A stretch of DNA of 58,118 bases from Flavisolibacter sp. GTDB lineage: Bacteria; Bacteroidota; Bacteroidia; Chitinophagales; Chitinophagaceae. The notes under the pieces were generated by a model, which saw only the letters and a program-made list of their open reading frames with translations, was not told the DNA's origin and did no database searches. Position numbers and translations under genes: made by a program. The stretch's first letter is position 1. Every line of letters begins with the position of its first letter. This document shows, in pieces, positions 7,734 through 15,627 of this stretch. The stretch covers positions 1-58,118 of the forward strand of contig JAQBNG010000138.1 of NCBI GenBank assembly GCA_028288675.1, in the 5' to 3' direction.

Positions 7734-7750
7734 TCTACCAATCTGGTAGA
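7734..7750. promoter_or_regulatory. 17-bp palindrome upstream of the cys leader
   Basis: TCTACCA-ATC-TGGTAGA is a perfect inverted repeat with 7-bp arms and a 3-nt centre, 43 nt before the riboswitch. The size and symmetry fit a dimeric repressor or activator site, placed where the cys-operon promoter should be. The regulator is unknown and no other copy was noticed in the window. Confidence 0.45.
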
Positions 7751-7792
7751 CATTAAGGAATCTATTCTACATTCGCACTAGTTCTTTACATC

Positions 7793-7923
7793 ACTTATCA
7801 AGAAAGGCGAAGGGATATGGCCCTATGATGCCTTGGCAACCATCTCAGATAGTAATTGAGAAAAGGTGCTAATTCCATCCACTGCTTCGGCATGCTCAGC
7901 ATGACAAGTGTGGTTAGATAAGT
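7793..7923 (+). ncRNA. SAM-I (S-box) riboswitch aptamer
   Basis: P1 is formed by ACTTATC (7793-7799) and GATAAGT (7917-7923). Between them lie the conserved S-box segments in order: AGAAAGGCGAAGGGA, TGGCCC-TATGAT, GCCTTGGCAACC and AAGGTGCTAATTCC. These correspond to the kink-turn, the P2/P4 pseudoknot region and the P3 ligand pocket. SAM binding should stabilise P1. It controls the cys operon starting at cysH, so high SAM would lower sulfur assimilation. Confidence 0.93.
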
Positions 7924-7962
7924 CAGATGCTATGTTTATTATTTTTCAACCGAAATAGTAAG

Positions 7963-7993
7963 AGCACTTCTGATTTATCGGGAGTGCTTTTTT
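7963..7993 (+). terminator. SAM-riboswitch intrinsic terminator
   Basis: AGCACTTC (7963-7970) pairs with GGAGTGCT (7981-7988) over 8 bp with one U-G pair, followed by a T-run. The alternative antiterminator is also visible. GATAAGTCAGA (7917-7927) pairs with TCTGATTTATC (7969-7979), and TGCT (7928-7931) pairs with AGCA (7963-7966). The antiterminator therefore uses the 3' strand of P1, and SAM binding would release the terminator. Confidence 0.88.
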
Positions 7994-8062
7994 GTTTATA
8001 GCAAGCCCGGTAAAGTTTGATAAGTGATTGAAGATGTTCAATCACAACTTAAAATGTAAGAG

Positions 8063-8167
8063 ATGATAAAAACAACAAGACGCAGTACGCAAAAACAAAC
8101 AGCTCAATGTACTTCTAAAGGGTGCTTTAGTATCTGTTGTTGTATTGATTCAAGTTGTATTTGCTAG
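8063..8167 (+). CDS. Cysteine-rich 34-residue leader ORF (candidate attenuator peptide)
   Basis: ATG at 8063 to TAG at 8165-8167 encodes a basic N-terminal half and a C-terminal run CFSICCCIDSSCIC. Seven of 34 codons are cysteine (residues 16, 21, 25, 26, 27, 32, 34), including three in a row. It sits after the riboswitch terminator and ends 48 nt before the cysH start. A short ORF dense in the operon's end product is the classical layout of a leader peptide that senses charged tRNA by ribosome stalling; cysteine versions are known in mycobacteria. No strong Shine-Dalgarno is visible, which is normal for Bacteroidota. It could instead be a small metal-binding peptide. Confidence 0.6.
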   Translation: MIKTTRRSTQKQTAQCTSKGCFSICCCIDSSCIC

Positions 8168-8215
8168 TTCCCATCTAACGATTTCCTGCTCAATTTTTTT
8201 ATCGAAACAAATTTT

Positions 8216-8950
8216 ATGGCACAAGTGCTTAAAGAGGCTATGGCCTTTTTACAAAAAAATAGTGAGGATATGAGTGTAACAGGTGTACTGGAGCAGGTGG
8301 TAACCTCGTTCCCTGGTGCCGTTACATTTTCTACCAGCTTCAGTTATGAAGACCAGGTGATAACAGACCTCATTCACAAATCCAATGCTGGCATTTCAAT
8401 TTTTACTTTAGATACGGGGCGCCAGTTCAACGAAACCTACAGTACATGGAGCCGTACCATTGAAAAATACGGATTGAAGATCACTGCCTTTTATCCTGAT
8501 GAAACTGAACTGAAAGAATTTGTTTCGCAAAAGGGCCCCAATGCTTTTTACGAATCTGTTGAAAATAGAAAAAGCTGCTGCTATATACGTAAAGTGGTGC
8601 CGTTAAAAAAAGCACTTGAGGGCAAAGCCGTATGGGTAACAGGTTTAAGGGCACAACATTCACCCGACAGGAATAATTTACAGGCTTTTGAATGGGACGA
8701 ATCCAATCAAATTCTTAAGTACCATCCTTTGCTCCATTGGAGTACAGAGGAAGTTCGGGCCTATATAGATGAAAATAATGTTCCCTACAATTCGCTGCAC
8801 GATAAAGGCTTTGTAAGCATTGGATGTGCGCCGTGTACAAGAGCCATTAAGCCCGGTGAGGACTTTCGTGCCGGAAGGTGGTGGTGGGAAGATGCCAGTA
8901 AAAAAGAATGTGGTTTACATGTTCATCAAACAACAACCCTATCAAACTGA
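8216..8950 (+). CDS. cysH: Adenylyl-sulfate (APS) reductase, CysH family
   Basis: It reduces activated sulfate to sulfite. The 244-residue protein has the PP-loop-like TFSTSFSYEDQVI block and the catalytic cysteine C232 in KKECGLH. It also carries the extra cysteine pairs C121-C122 and C204/C207 (CAPC), the 4Fe-4S ligands that mark APS-specific rather than PAPS-specific enzymes. This fits the absence of an APS kinase gene or domain in the cluster. It is the first structural gene of the operon and is followed by cysD after 14 nt. Confidence 0.95.
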   Translation: MAQVLKEAMAFLQKNSEDMSVTGVLEQVVTSFPGAVTFSTSFSYEDQVITDLIHKSNAGISIFTLDTGRQFNETYSTWSRTIEKYGLKITAFYPDETELKEFVSQKGPNAFYESVENRKSCCYIRKVVPLKKALEGKAVWVTGLRAQHSPDRNNLQAFEWDESNQILKYHPLLHWSTEEVRAYIDENNVPYNSLHDKGFVSIGCAPCTRAIKPGEDFRAGRWWWEDASKKECGLHVHQTTTLSN

Positions 8951-8964
8951 AATAACAAATTAGA

Positions 8965-9870
8965 ATGAGCTATCAATTAGATTATTTAGATCAATTAGAG
9001 TCGGAAGCCATTTACATTATGCGGGAAGCTGCGGGCCAGTTTGAGCGACCTGCATTATTGTTTTCCGGCGGTAAAGATTCTATTACGTTAGTGCACCTGG
9101 CATTGAAAGCGTTTCGTCCGGGCAAGTTTCCTTTTCCCTTAGTTCATATTGATACCGGTCACAACTTCCAGGAAGCGTTGGACTTTAGGGATAAACTGGT
9201 GGCCGAAACCGGCGAGCAATTAATTGTACGGAATGTAGGAGATACCATCAGGAAAAAAGGATTGAAAGAAACAACTGGTAAGCTTGCCAGCCGCAACGCT
9301 TTGCAAACTTTTACCTTATTAGATACAATTGAGGAATTTGAATTTGATGCTTGCATTGGTGGCGCCCGTCGCGATGAAGAAAAAGCAAGAGCGAAAGAAA
9401 GAGTGTTTTCTGTTCGTGATGAATTTGGCGGTTGGGAGCCGAAAAAGCAACGTCCCGAACTATGGAATATTTACAACGGAAAAATAAGCAAAGGCGAAAA
9501 CGTGAGGGTATTTCCAATAAGCAACTGGACCGAATTAGATGTATGGAATTATATAAAAAGAGAAGGTATTGAGTTGCCAAAAATTTATTTCTCACATGAA
9601 AGGGAGATACTGGAATATGAAGGACAGTTGATCGCAAATTCTGAATTTATTCGTCGTGATGTTGGTGACGTGATTACAAGAAAAAAAGTGCGTTACCGCA
9701 CTGTTGGTGATATGACTTGTACGGCTGCCGTGGAAAGCAATGCAATTACGCTGGATGAAATTATTGCTGAAATAAGCGCTACCCGTATTAGTGAAAGAGG
9801 CGAAACAAGAATTGATGATCGCATATCGGAAGCAGCGATGGAGGACAGGAAAGTGAATGGGTATTTCTGA
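8965..9870 (+). CDS. cysD: Sulfate adenylyltransferase subunit 2
   Basis: With CysN this forms ATP sulfurylase, making APS from sulfate and ATP. SGGKDS (34-39) is the PP-loop that binds ATP. Other family blocks are PFPLVHIDTGHNFQEALDFRD, the GGARRDEEKARAKER region and the C-terminal RYRTVGDMTCT segment. The length of 301 residues is standard. A repeat element fills the 118 nt before cysN. Confidence 0.97.
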   Translation: MSYQLDYLDQLESEAIYIMREAAGQFERPALLFSGGKDSITLVHLALKAFRPGKFPFPLVHIDTGHNFQEALDFRDKLVAETGEQLIVRNVGDTIRKKGLKETTGKLASRNALQTFTLLDTIEEFEFDACIGGARRDEEKARAKERVFSVRDEFGGWEPKKQRPELWNIYNGKISKGENVRVFPISNWTELDVWNYIKREGIELPKIYFSHEREILEYEGQLIANSEFIRRDVGDVITRKKVRYRTVGDMTCTAAVESNAITLDEIIAEISATRISERGETRIDDRISEAAMEDRKVNGYF

Positions 9871-9988: not shown

Positions 9989-11230
9989 ATGGACTTACTA
10001 AGATTTATAACAGCAGGCAGTGTAGATGATGGAAAAAGTACCTTCATCGGAAGGCTGCTGTACGATAGTAAAAATATACTGACAGACCAGTTGGAAGCTT
10101 TGATGAGACAAAGCCGAACGACCTCTTATGCCGATATTGACCTGGCTTTGTTGACTGATGGCCTCAGGGCTGAAAGAGAGCAGGGCATTACGATAGATGT
10201 GGCGTATAAATATTTTTCTACACCCAAACGTAAGTTTATCATCGCCGATGCGCCGGGACATATTCAGTACACCCGCAACATGATAACCGGTGCCTCTAAT
10301 TCTGATTGTATCATTATTTTAATTGATGCACGTAATGGTGTGATTGAGCAAACAAGGCGGCATTCTATTATCGCTTCCTTGTTGAAAATTCCGCACGTAG
10401 TAGTTGCAGTAAATAAAATGGACATAGTTGGCTATAGCCAGGAAGTCTATGAAAATATTATTGGTGATTATAAAAAGTTGGCTGCCGAATTAGGCCTCCC
10501 TGATGTGTATTACATTCCTATCAGCGCACTAAAAGGCGACAACATTATTGAGCAGTCGGCTGACCTCTCCTGGTTCAATGGCGATCCGCTTTTAACGCAC
10601 CTTGAAAACGTGGAAGTTCATAAAGCTAACAGCAATGGCCCTTCCCGTTTTTCTGTGCAATATGTTATCCGTCCGCAGGCAGAAGAGCATCATGATTACA
10701 GGGGTTATGCGGGTAGAATCAGCAGTGGCCGGTATAAAAAAGGCGACTCGGTTCAAATACTTCCTTCGGGTTTTACATCGGTAATTAAAGCCATTGAGGT
10801 GAACAGGAAGGAAGTGGAAGAAGCGTTTGCAGGACAAAGTGTTGTGATTCACCTGGAGGAAAATATTGACATAAGCCGTGGCGACGCCATTGTGAAAACT
10901 GATGAGCAGCCAAGAATAGAAAACAATTTCGACGTGTTATTGTGCTGGATGGATAACCAGCAACTAACACCCGGCAATAAATACATATTGCAACATGGCA
11001 GCAGGCGGGTAAAAGCAATTGTAAAAGATATCGCTTACAAGCTGGATGTAAATACCCTGGAACAACAACCATCTCCCGCCTCGGCCGGATTGAATGATGT
11101 GATAAGAGCTACCATAAAAACAGCAGAGCCTTTATCGTTTGATTCTTATCAAAACCTACCAGCTAATGGTACCGCTATCCTTATTGATCAAACATCAAAC
11201 ATGACGGTGGGAGCCTGCCTGATTCAATAA
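9989..11230 (+). CDS. cysN: Sulfate adenylyltransferase subunit 1 (GTPase)
   Basis: This is the GTPase subunit that couples GTP hydrolysis to APS formation. The 413-residue protein shows G1 GSVDDGKST (10-18), the G3 block DAPGH, and G4 NKMD, followed by elongation-factor-like beta-barrel domains. It ends without the C-terminal APS-kinase (CysC) domain present in NodQ-like fusions, which agrees with direct APS reduction by CysH. The cysE start lies 8 nt downstream. Confidence 0.96.
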   Translation: MDLLRFITAGSVDDGKSTFIGRLLYDSKNILTDQLEALMRQSRTTSYADIDLALLTDGLRAEREQGITIDVAYKYFSTPKRKFIIADAPGHIQYTRNMITGASNSDCIIILIDARNGVIEQTRRHSIIASLLKIPHVVVAVNKMDIVGYSQEVYENIIGDYKKLAAELGLPDVYYIPISALKGDNIIEQSADLSWFNGDPLLTHLENVEVHKANSNGPSRFSVQYVIRPQAEEHHDYRGYAGRISSGRYKKGDSVQILPSGFTSVIKAIEVNRKEVEEAFAGQSVVIHLEENIDISRGDAIVKTDEQPRIENNFDVLLCWMDNQQLTPGNKYILQHGSRRVKAIVKDIAYKLDVNTLEQQPSPASAGLNDVIRATIKTAEPLSFDSYQNLPANGTAILIDQTSNMTVGACLIQ

Positions 11231-11238
11231 ATTTTTCT

Positions 11239-12069
11239 ATGAACGAAACAGCTTTTATAAACGATGTTATTGGCAATAAAATGTTGGGTATGCAACACTT
11301 TCCGGATAAAGTGTTAGCTCACTCTTTTATTGACGATATTTTTCGTTTTCTCTTTATCGGTAAAACCAGTGATTGGAATAATGATGTAGCGTTAAAAAAC
11401 TGGAATGGATTAAAAAGCAGTTTCGAATTTTTACTAGCTGAAACAACAACAGGGGAGAGAGAGTCTGCCAACTACGGCACTGAGTTTTTTAACAAGCTTC
11501 CCATTCTTTATAAGGCTCTGCTACAGGATGCAGAAGCTATTCTGGAGTTTGACCCTGCTGCGCAAAATATTTCGGAAGTAATTATGGCGTACCCGGGGTT
11601 TTATGCAACGGTTATTTATCGTTTATCGCATCATTTATGGCAAAATAATATCCGGTTATTAGCCCGCTTATTTACTGAATTCGCCCATAGCAAAACAGGT
11701 ATTGATATTCATCCCGGGGCGCAGATAGGACCGGCATTTGCCATTGACCATGGAACCGGGATAGTGATTGGAGAAACGGCCATAATTGGTAGCAACGTAA
11801 AAATTTACCAGGGGGTAACCTTAGGTGCTTTGCACGTAGAAAAATCATTGGCAAGTACCAAGCGCCATCCCACCATCGAAGATGAAGTTGTTATTTACTC
11901 CGGTGCCACCATACTTGGTGGTGAGACTGTTGTTGGTAAAGGAAGCATCATTGGAGGTAACGTTTGGCTTACTTACAGTGTGCCACGCAACTCTGTGGTT
12001 TATCATACCAGCGAAGTAAAGATCAAAGACAGAAATCCATTTCCCGAACCATTAAATTTTGTCATTTAA
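11239..12069 (+). CDS. cysE: Serine O-acetyltransferase
   Basis: It makes O-acetylserine, the acceptor for sulfide. The 276-residue protein has a helical N-terminal domain and a C-terminal left-handed hexapeptide-repeat domain beginning around [20 protein letters not shown]. That segment includes the catalytic histidine-aspartate region and the [24 protein letters not shown] block. The long N-terminal domain resembles the SAT form common in Bacteroidota. It ends 13 nt before cysK. Confidence 0.94.
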
Positions 12070-12082
12070 AACTTGCATATAT

Positions 12083-12997
12083 ATGAAAGCAGATAGCATT
12101 TTACAAACGATAGGAAATACACCACACATACGGCTAAATAAAATTTTCCCCTCAGATTACGAGGTATGGATAAAGTTGGAAAAGAATAACCCCGGAGGAA
12201 GTATCAAAGACCGTATTGCATTGTCAATGATAGAAGACGCTGAACAAAAAGGGATACTTAATAAGGATAGTGTTATTATAGAACCTACATCCGGTAATAC
12301 CGGGATAGGATTGGCATTGGTAGCTGCTGTAAAAGGGTATAAGTTGATATTGGTGATGCCGGAAAGTATGAGCATTGAACGCCGCCGGTTGATGTCATCG
12401 TACGGCGCTGAATTTGTTTTAACGCCCCGCGAAAAAGGAATGAAAGGTGCTATTGAAAGAGCCCGTGAAGTAGCGGCAGAAACACCTAACTCCTGGCTGC
12501 CTTTGCAGTTTGATAATCCGGCCAATACGGAGATTCATCGCACTACAACTGCACAGGAAATTATTGCTGATTTTGGTGATGGATTAGACTATGTAATCAC
12601 GGGTGTTGGAACTGGCGGGCACATTACTGCCATCGCTGAAGTTGTAAAGCAAAAGCTGCCTAACCTGAAAGTTTTTGCAGTAGAGCCTGAACTTTCACCG
12701 GTGCTAAGCGGAGGCGCTCCATCGCCGCATCCGTTACAGGGCATTGGTGCCGGCTTTATTCCTTCCATCTTAAATAGGGAAGCGTTAGATGGCGTGATTA
12801 CGGTAGGTAAAGAAGAAGCTTTTTTATACACACAGCGTCTTGCCAAAGAAGAAGGCATTTTAGCTGGAATTTCAACAGGCGCCGTGGTAGCTGCAGTAAT
12901 GAAAAAATTACCGGAGCTTCCCAAAGGTTCGAAAATTTTAACCTACAACTACGATACTGGTGAACGTTATTTATCCATCGAGGGATTATTCCCATAA
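12083..12997 (+). CDS. cysK: Cysteine synthase (O-acetylserine sulfhydrylase)
   Basis: This PLP enzyme joins sulfide to O-acetylserine. I use the ATG at 12083 ([18 protein letters not shown], 304 residues), which matches the family N-terminus; the longer frame overlaps cysE. K42 in NPGGSIKDR is the PLP lysine. [12 protein letters not shown] is the substrate loop and [10 protein letters not shown] the phosphate-binding loop. The CysK-type C-terminus ends in [12 protein letters not shown]. It completes the sulfate-to-cysteine route in this operon. Confidence 0.95.
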
Positions 12998-13109: not shown

Positions 13110-13934
13110 ATGAAGGGCAAAGTAATACTAATTGGGGCGGGGCCAGGAGATCCAGAGCTGCTAACCGTCAAAGCTTTTCGCATCCTGCAAATAGCAGACG
13201 TAGTCTTGACCGACCGCTTGGTCAGCCCTGAAATTCTTGCCACTTATGTTTCGCCAAAGGCAGAAATTATTTATGTTGGTAAGCAATGTCGCAAAGGTGC
13301 ATCAACTCCGCAGGCAACTATAAATGAGTTGATGGTAAGTCATGCGAACGAGGGCAAATTAGTAGTACGGTTAAAGGGAGGCGATGTTTCTATCTTCTCT
13401 AATATTCTTGATGAGTTAGAAACACTTGTCGAGAATAACATTCCCTATGAAATTGTTCCCGGCGTAACAGCGGCATTGGGTGCAGCGGCATATGCTGGCA
13501 TACCGCTAACTGCCCGAAATTATGCTACAGCACTACGCTTACTTACAGCCTATAAACCGGATGTAGTGCCAGCTAATTATTGGAAGGAACTGGCGGCTAC
13601 TGATGACACACTGGTGTTTTATATGTCATCAGAAACATTGGCAGATGTTGTTCAAAACCTTTGTGCTAATAAAATTTCGAAAGACAAATTATTAGCGGTG
13701 GTAGAGCAGGCAACTACACCATTTCAAAAAGTTCATATAAGCTCTTTATATGAGTACGATAAAAAGTTAAGCGACAAGAAATTTCGATCGCCTACACTTG
13801 TCATTATTGGAAAAGTGGTAGCACTTCACCAGCAGTTTGATTGGTTTAAGCCAAAAAACGGCAGCGTAGAATATTTCAGTTCTGCCGATAATAAGAGTAT
13901 TAATGTAAGCGAGCCTTTAGCGCTAACGGCATAA
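13110..13934 (+). CDS. cobA: Uroporphyrinogen-III C-methyltransferase
   Basis: It makes precorrin-2, the precursor of siroheme, using two SAM. The 274-residue protein shows ILIGAGPGDPELLTVKA, LVVRLKGGDVSIF and VPGVTAALGAAAYAGIPLT, all SUMT signatures. It stands alone, not fused to CysG-N; the dehydrogenase/chelatase half is in the fusion gene at 17875. Siroheme is the prosthetic group of the sulfite reductase CysI encoded nearby. cysJ begins 8 nt downstream. Confidence 0.94.
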   Translation: MKGKVILIGAGPGDPELLTVKAFRILQIADVVLTDRLVSPEILATYVSPKAEIIYVGKQCRKGASTPQATINELMVSHANEGKLVVRLKGGDVSIFSNILDELETLVENNIPYEIVPGVTAALGAAAYAGIPLTARNYATALRLLTAYKPDVVPANYWKELAATDDTLVFYMSSETLADVVQNLCANKISKDKLLAVVEQATTPFQKVHISSLYEYDKKLSDKKFRSPTLVIIGKVVALHQQFDWFKPKNGSVEYFSSADNKSINVSEPLALTA

Positions 13935-13941
13935 ATTATAA

Positions 13942-15627
13942 ATGATGTTGAGCAATATAAAAATAAAAAAAGTACAGGAGCTGGTGGCTGATTTAAGCCG
14001 TGATGAAATCATCTGGCTTAACGGTTACCTGGCTGGAATTGTTTCGAAAGAAGCCGCCGCTGAAGTAACACCTGTTGTGTCAGCAGTAAGTAAAATCACC
14101 ATTGCTTACGGCACTGAAACCGGTAATTCAAAAAAGTTGGCTACTGCATTTGCAGCCAAAGCAAAGCAGGCAAAAATACAGGCAAAGATTATTGCGCTTG
14201 AGCAATATAAATTACCTGACCTGTTGAAAGAAGAATGGCTGGTTGCCATCATCAGCACACACGGTGAAGGTGAGCCACCGACCGCTGCAAAGAAATTCTA
14301 CGATCATATTCATGAGAACGATTTATCACTTACGCAATTGAAATATGGCGTGCTTGCCCTTGGTGATACTTCGTATCCTTTGTTTTGCAAAGCCGGGGAT
14401 GATATAGACCAGCAACTGCAAAAATTAGGAGCTACTCCTATCATTCCCATTCAACGGTTGGATACGGATTACGATACGGAAGCTACCGATTGGTTCAGCT
14501 CTTTATTGAGTTCATTGACTACATCGGTGCCTTCGGAAGTACCTCTAACTGCTCCGGTTAGAAAATCAGGAAAGCAGATTTACAACGGCAGCATTCTTAC
14601 AAAAATCAACCTCAATGCAACCGGCTCCCAAAAAGAAACTTATCATATAGAAATTGGTGCGCAGGATGTAGCGTTTGAACCCGGCGATGCGTTAGGTGTT
14701 GTGCCAGCCAACAATAAAGAAACAGTAGAAAAAATTGTAGCCCTGAGTGGATTGGATGCAGGAGCAATTATTAATTATAAGAGCGAGGAGTACGTTGTTG
14801 ATGAATTGTTGAAACGCAAGTTGTCAATTTTTAATTTGTCGGAAAAGCAGGTAAGCCAGTACGGTGAAATTGTGCAGCAATCTATTCCCCCAACAAGAAT
14901 GGATTTGCTTGACCTTTTACGGATTTACCCGGTTAATAGCAGCGAGCAATTCATTGCGCTCCTTCAGTTGCTTCATCCAACGGTACCACGGTTATATTCT
15001 ATCGCTTCGTCACCTGCTATGCACGAAGGTGAAGTTCATCTAACGGTGGGCAGGCATAGCTTTCAAATTAATGGGCAAGACCGCAACGGCTTATGTTCCG
15101 ATTACCTGGCACAGTTGGAAGAAGGCAGTGCCATTGATTTTTACATACATAAAAATCATTTGTTCAAACTGCCTGCGGCCGATAAAGACATTATCATGAT
15201 TGGCCCCGGTACCGGCATTGCGCCGTTCCGTTCTTTTGTTGCTGAACGTGATGCTACAGGTGCTGAAGGCCGCAGTTGGTTGTTCTTTGGCGACCAGCAT
15301 TTCACTACCGATTTTTTATATCAAACCGAATGGCAGGCCTGGCTCGAAACCGGTGCCTTATCCAAAATGAATGTTGCCTTTAGCCGTGATACAAAAGAAA
15401 AGATTTATGTGCAGCATAAATTGTTGCAACATGCAAAAGAGGTTTTTGAATGGATAGATGGCGGTGCATATCTCTACATCTGCGGTGCAAAAGATCCGAT
15501 GGCTATTGATGTGGAGAATACGTTGTTCCAAATTATACGGCGCTATAAAAATGGTTCGGAAGAAGAGGCGGTTTTGTATTTGGAAGGCATGAAAGAGGAA
15601 GGAAGATTTTTGAAGGATGTGTATTAG
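13942..15627 (+). CDS. cysJ: Sulfite reductase [NADPH] flavoprotein subunit
   Basis: It transfers electrons from NADPH through FAD and FMN to CysI. The 561-residue protein has an N-terminal flavodoxin domain (ITIAYGTETGNSKKLA, then STHGEGEPPTAAKKFYD), an FAD domain with PRLYSIASSP, and an NADP domain with IGPGTGIAPFRSF. It ends in the aromatic tail FLKDVY typical of this family. A roughly 560-nt repeat-filled gap separates it from cysI. Confidence 0.96.
   Translation: MMLSNIKIKKVQELVADLSRDEIIWLNGYLAGIVSKEAAAEVTPVVSAVSKITIAYGTETGNSKKLATAFAAKAKQAKIQAKIIALEQYKLPDLLKEEWLVAIISTHGEGEPPTAAKKFYDHIHENDLSLTQLKYGVLALGDTSYPLFCKAGDDIDQQLQKLGATPIIPIQRLDTDYDTEATDWFSSLLSSLTTSVPSEVPLTAPVRKSGKQIYNGSILTKINLNATGSQKETYHIEIGAQDVAFEPGDALGVVPANNKETVEKIVALSGLDAGAIINYKSEEYVVDELLKRKLSIFNLSEKQVSQYGEIVQQSIPPTRMDLLDLLRIYPVNSSEQFIALLQLLHPTVPRLYSIASSPAMHEGEVHLTVGRHSFQINGQDRNGLCSDYLAQLEEGSAIDFYIHKNHLFKLPAADKDIIMIGPGTGIAPFRSFVAERDATGAEGRSWLFFGDQHFTTDFLYQTEWQAWLETGALSKMNVAFSRDTKEKIYVQHKLLQHAKEVFEWIDGGAYLYICGAKDPMAIDVENTLFQIIRRYKNGSEEEAVLYLEGMKEEGRFLKDVY

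Follow-up and report, generated by a model that had tools for sequence, protein, structure and literature searches.

A short open reading frame (ORF) directly upstream of the sulfate-assimilation gene cysH in Flavisolibacter sp. very probably encodes a cysteine-responsive leader peptide, a judgement that concerns the leader and does not extend to the involvement of Rho considered below. The ORF lies in a 58,118-nucleotide stretch of DNA (contig JAQBNG010000138.1), which was analysed at its full length and is referred to here as the window. As the original prediction had claimed, the frame comprises 34 codons, seven of them for Cys, and it runs on the + strand from an ATG at 8063 to a TAG at 8165–8167 (8063–8167 including the stop), with the product MIKTTRRSTQKQTAQCTSKGCFSICCCIDSSCIC. 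The Cys codons begin at 8108, 8123, 8135, 8138, 8141, 8156, and 8162; the "CCC" noted earlier is a run of three Cys codons (8135–8143), and the C-terminus reads Cys-Ile-Cys-stop. These clustered codons (three consecutive and two more up to the stop, 8135–8164) form the presumed stall site, a role suggested by their recurrence and retention in relatives. The leader stop is separated from the cysH ATG at 8216 by 48 nt, the spacing originally given, and the range 8063–8215 that had been singled out is made up of the leader ORF and this gap. By Cys count the ORF ranks first among the 683 window ORFs of 20–60 amino acids (aa), and it has the general features of an amino-acid leader, being short, upstream in an operon leader, and rich in codons for the pathway's product. 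Our assignment draws on the ORF call, its recurrence, and the retention of its Cys codons.

Recurrence and codon retention among relatives

We examined cysH loci from named contigs (the best 80 of 219 confirmed), from the genus (13 of 18 genomes matching, with one partial cysH match, L013, excluded from the count), and from a 148-genome draw of the order (the best 30, of which 27 were new). Under a fixed rule, a leader was an ORF of 8–60 aa with its stop 15–130 nt before the gene and with either CCC, or at least four Cys including CC, within its last 20 residues. Absence of the ORF from relatives had been named as grounds for abandoning the prediction; instead, 61 of 119 loci carry a Cys-run mini-ORF before cysH (58 of 114 after identical upstream stretches were merged), including 6 of 12 genus loci, while the reverse strand yielded 2 of 119. 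A functionless Cys-rich frame could arise by chance, since an ORF of 8–60 aa with at least seven Cys appeared in 2 of 5,000 dinucleotide shuffles of 8001–8215, and the laxer fixed rule was passed by 0.74% of shuffles (88 of 11,900). However, recurrence at the same place before cysH, and before two other cysteine-linked genes, makes such an accident extremely improbable.

The first of these genes is cysS, encoding cysteinyl-tRNA synthetase, to which poly-Cys sites outside long frames pointed as a candidate; a leader at this position is what would be predicted if charged tRNA-Cys is the quantity sensed. We found leaders before 12 of 30 cysS loci (reverse strand 0 of 30; shuffles 21 of 3,000), these loci being the best-scoring of 145 matching genomes and thus representing near relatives only. 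Six further cysS leaders came from the poly-Cys pattern sites. Genome-wide counts of poly-Cys runs before a stop were themselves rejected as evidence, as long reading frames overlap 53 of the 60 (TGY)4-TRA sites retrieved and enclose 66 of 96 (TGY)5-TRA sites, and the counts served solely for finding candidate genes. In a control covering 363 other ORFs of the same loci, five were preceded by a leader, and all five were metY (O-acetylhomoserine sulfhydrylase; identity confirmed by profile for one of the five), each with an S-adenosylmethionine (SAM) riboswitch upstream on the same strand. In other families, 5 of 16 examined metY loci carry a leader by the fixed rule.

Beyond the order, draws from the phylum (90 genomes) gave few passes: a single cysS locus among 27 newly retrieved (L346, which belongs to a different family in the class) and 4 of 30 cysH loci, two of which are the window and a genus mate and the other two possibly chance. 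The leader therefore appears centred on Chitinophagales, with Rufibacter, of the Cytophagales, alongside.

The conservation check that the original prediction called for revealed preferential retention of Cys codons. Across 20 chosen near pairs, some with common members and thus not independent, Cys was retained in 120 of 130 codons with Cys on either side, compared with 250 of 349 other codons that kept their residue (Fisher p 3.5e-7). Over all codons, these pairs differ by 52 synonymous and 183 nonsynonymous changes, which indicates no general protein constraint. Because the Cys codons are kept while the remainder drifts, the pattern points to a leader peptide in which the codons matter, rather than to a small protein. 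With 7 Cys among 34 residues, the product could conceivably be a metal or sulfur binder co-made with the cys operon, but the drift of the non-Cys sequence, the widely varying lengths and N-termini of the leaders, and the same ending before cysH, cysS, and metY render a functional Cys-rich protein highly unlikely. Moreover, no NCBIfam family scored above its cut-off for the seven leaders tested; the leader of one relative matched a streptolysin family (E 0.018, 14.9 bits, cut-off 35), a hit dismissed as reflecting Cys composition.

Two leader architectures and the candidate output

The original prediction proposed that ribosome stalling on Cys codons, when tRNA-Cys is uncharged, controls cysH in series with SAM sensing. 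The core of this proposal is supported by the recurrence, the retention of Cys codons, the cysS leaders, and an arrangement of Cys run, antiterminator, and terminator in related loci; the route from leader to cysH in the window is conjectural.

The terminator arrangement was recognized in seven loci (L069, L078, L079, L083, L085, L086, and L087), six labelled Saprospiraceae or Saprospirales and one (L069) labelled only Bacteroidota. Here the leader extends 36–54 nt past the Cys run, and a strong terminator (free energy, dG, −25 to −31) follows, whose 5' half can pair with an arm starting 3–13 nt past the run. The antiterminator pairing was matched by 0–14 of 300 shuffles in six of the seven loci, with L087 not significant (77 of 300). 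In L085 and L086 the leader element lies approximately 560 nt before cysH, and these two loci, together with L078 and L083, fail the fixed rule and stand outside the 61. Judged by their sequence, the seven loci are trp-style attenuators built with Cys codons, in which a stall on Cys would free the antiterminator arm and permit read-through; in these related families, the same sensor would thus act through an intrinsic terminator. A terminator scan of the rule-defined leaders returned 2 of 61 cysH loci (L069 and L087, both of this Saprospiraceae type) and 0 of 12 cysS loci; L079 passes the rule, and its terminator, missed by the scan, was assigned by eye.

Terminator-like hairpins also follow Cys-codon ORFs before metY in other Chitinophagales families (L391, L393–L396, L398, and L399), with a clear antiterminator arm in L394 and L396 and one no better than shuffles in L391, L393, L395, L398, and L399. 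Five metY leaders (L026, L031, L043, L072, and L090; minus strand) share an invariant ATGCC/GGCAT hairpin where the ORF ends, spanning the stop codon in four of the five. Because its sequence is constant, this hairpin offers no covariation evidence, and it could alternatively be a DNA palindrome.

Terminator-less leaders, the class to which the window belongs, have a distinct geometry. Of 67 distinct cases, 58 have their last Cys at most 2 residues from the stop, and the leader-gene gap has a median of 60 nt. Compared with the same genes without a leader (67 versus 70; gap lengths vary, with controls fixed at 58 nt), the gap has a higher C-over-G skew (0.40 versus 0.07, p 1e-13) and pyrimidine content (0.62 versus 0.50, p 1e-13) and is less folded (p 6e-6), the median fold of the 58 nt before the gene being −4.2 with a leader and −6.6 without. 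The same three differences, in skew, pyrimidine content, and folding, hold against the upstream stretches of 253 other genes. In the window, the 48-nt gap (8168–8215, + strand) lacks a terminator and has a pyrimidine fraction of 0.67 and a skew of 0.57, the composition of a possible Rho-loading stretch. A stall site by the stop followed by an unstructured C-over-G stretch recalls the geometry of tnaC, a likeness of composition only. A rho gene is present in the window genome.

Based on these features, we propose the following sequence of events. RNA polymerase would first pass the SAM riboswitch, which would stop transcription when SAM is plentiful; upon read-through, a ribosome would translate the 34-codon leader. 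With ample charged tRNA-Cys, the ribosome would reach the stop and leave, and cysH would stay low. With tRNA-Cys uncharged, it would stall within the Cys cluster that closes the leader, allowing cysH and the downstream genes to be expressed. Specifically, the parked ribosome may cover the start of the pyrimidine-rich gap and keep Rho from loading, which would amount to a tnaC-like geometry with a starvation trigger. We infer translation, stalling, the direction of the response, and Rho alike. Rho is the likeliest single output, although we place it a little short of probable, with the remainder falling on translational control or RNA stability.

A translational output with the same sensor is conceivable, if on balance doubtful: the end of the leader would pair near the cysH start, and a stall on Cys would break this pairing and open cysH. 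Base pairing between the last Cys codons and RNA past the stop is indeed possible in five Rufibacter loci (96.4% of cells paired), where two pairs show changes on both sides in a single locus and 15 of 500 shuffles score as high; translation attenuation is named for Mycobacterium smegmatis cysteine genes in a passage of PMC13236596. However, by the medians given above, genes with a leader show weaker folding in the preceding 58 nt than those without one, and the matching helix between Cys codons and gap in the window's genus is unsupported (251 of 500 shuffles as high).

The failure of this helix counts against our own interpretation as well, as do several further observations. No terminator occurs in 8168–8215, for which reason the window is not classed as a trp-type attenuator and its output mechanism is a guess. 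By the rule, 58 of the 119 cysH loci have no leader, as is the case for 18 of the 30 cysS loci, and half of the genus loci are without a recognizable one. The window leader is also weaker than those of its five genus relatives, having 7 Cys and a single run of three where the relatives carry two blocks (CCCC and CCC), and neither cysS nor metY is preceded by a leader in the genome of the window, where metY has a SAM riboswitch. The looser Cys pattern and the bare cysS and metY would fit a decayed relic of a leader that functions in relatives. We consider decay unlikely, however, as the seven Cys remain correctly placed and end at the stop (equalled, as above, in 2 of 5,000 shuffles), the start MIKTT resembles the MKKTT of the genus relatives, and the gap has the same composition.

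The SAM riboswitch and other features of the locus

The SAM riboswitch that had been placed upstream of the leader is confirmed by an RF00162 match at 7792–7924 (+ strand; 74.5 bits against a gathering score of 44.4). A terminator-like hairpin with a 14-pair stem and a T run (7960–7991, + strand), the presumed riboswitch output, lies 3' of the aptamer, completing the arrangement expected of an S-box. Riboswitch and leader stand in series in all six genus leader loci. Within a survey of 20 hand-chosen loci, 16 have the riboswitch, comprising these six, the five metY loci, and five leader loci of Sediminibacterium-like type. In L215 and L229 a leader precedes cysH with no SAM riboswitch within the upstream stretch examined, and L024 and L068 have neither element, with only about 200 nt of upstream sequence examined for L024. 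From the order of the elements alone, we infer that expression in the window would need low SAM and low charged tRNA-Cys together.

Two further elements lie in the upstream region. Between the riboswitch terminator and the leader is a nine-pair hairpin, GTGATTGAA-gatg-TTCAATCAC (8024–8045, + strand), which is kept in four of the five genus relatives with a leader (L003–L006) and absent from L002. Further upstream, TCTACCAATCTGGTAGA (7734–7750) is a perfect palindrome with 0 mismatches and a possible operator of the leader promoter; the window holds one other site, with 2 mismatches, against a chance mean of 0.40 sites with at most 2 mismatches. By eye, similar sites occur near the cysH promoters of many relatives. 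The palindrome is possibly the operator of a sulfur regulator, for which the Rrf2/CymR type is a guess.

To characterize leader start sites, we searched for TAnnTTTG-like boxes, presumably the Bacteroidota −7 element, allowing one mismatch and without a shuffled control. For cysS leaders, a box lies 4–10 nt before the ATG in 14 of 18 cases, suggesting transcripts that start at the ATG or close to it. Among cysH leaders, a box is found in 50 of 62 cases, and 42 of the 50 are positioned 19–40 nt before the ATG, indicating that these leaders are mostly not leaderless. The window leader has no box within 60 nt, and its position behind the riboswitch sets it apart from the mycobacterial leaderless type, in which the transcript starts at the ATG.

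Downstream, ORF and profile searches identified an operon on the + strand. It begins with cysH (PAPS/APS, i.e., phosphoadenylyl-sulfate/adenylyl-sulfate, reductase; 8216–8950), cysD (8965–9870), and cysN (9989–11230), followed by a cysE-like serine O-acetyltransferase gene (11239–12069; profile score above the EpsC cut-off and below the cysE cut-off) and cysK (12083–12997, start possibly TTG at 12059). A uroporphyrinogen-III C-methyltransferase gene for siroheme (13110–13934) and a cysJ-like sulfite reductase flavoprotein gene (13942–15627; below the cysJ cut-off) come next.

Poly-Cys mini-ORFs were also seen elsewhere: 98 and 70 nt upstream of a glutamate-dehydrogenase-like gene with no obvious cysteine link in two genomes of one other genus (L148 and L270), some 300 nt ahead of a TonB-type receptor (L259 and L308), and about 230 nt before small exported-looking proteins (L310 and L295).

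Relation to known leaders and significance

Cys-codon leaders are already known, and the mycobacterial precedent invoked by the original prediction is sound: leaderless poly-cysteine short ORF (sORF) attenuators of mycobacteria are attributed to Canestrari et al. 2020 in the citing passages of PMC13236596 and PMC9094748. Like these, the leaders described here are short Cys-codon ORFs before cysteine genes, and our cysS leaders look leaderless. Unlike these, as far as the citing passages describe them, ours belong to another phylum, include cysS and metY among their targets, and have terminators in some families, and the window leader lies behind a SAM riboswitch. Actinobacterial cys leader peptides, as presented in part of PMC1262725, have Cys-codon runs near the stop and no terminator found, and their authors suggested Rho. 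The window type shares the Cys runs near the stop and the lack of a terminator, in another phylum and before other genes, and here the composition of the gap was tested against controls and differs from them.

The uORFC-8-2 motif before Rhodobacterales cysS, according to an excerpt of PMC8632094, combines leader Cys codons with a terminator output and tRNA-Cys charging as the proposed signal, and resembles our Saprospiraceae-type loci. It has two tandem Cys codons, whereas the runs here are longer, occur mainly before cysH, and in the window type lack a terminator. In E. coli tnaC, a stalled ribosome blocks Rho (PMC8429421, in part); similarly, a ribosome held at the end of our leader would mask an adjoining Rho site. 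In tnaC, however, stalling is brought about by the leader's own peptide together with free Trp, whereas we propose lack of charged tRNA-Cys as the trigger and a predicted role for Rho. Closer relatives are touched upon in PMC9723704, whose section 19 mentions leader-peptide attenuation before Flavobacterium amino-acid operons without naming cysteine there, and in a portion of PMC7366714, which describes leader-like sORFs in B. thetaiotaomicron.

To our knowledge, little is known of cysteine sensing in Bacteroidota. In agreement with the original prediction, literature searches found no cysteine leader described in this phylum, which is weak evidence given that most subscription papers were outside reach.

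Taken as a whole, and tentatively, these observations suggest one cysteine sensor with exchangeable outputs in Chitinophagales, controlling sulfate assimilation, cysteinyl-tRNA synthetase, and homocysteine synthase. Some families would use a trp-type terminator. In the window's family, a starved ribosome would shield a Rho site, with the geometry of tnaC and the opposite kind of trigger, and the SAM riboswitch in series would let a single transcript respond to SAM as well as to charged tRNA-Cys. If this holds, unannotated mini-ORFs are the means by which many members of the order gauge cysteine via tRNA charging. Two inputs, SAM and charged tRNA-Cys, sensed in series on the same RNA would be unusual as a design, and Chitinophagales would offer natural pairs of one sensor with a terminator or a terminator-free output, a direct way to study how attenuator mechanisms change.
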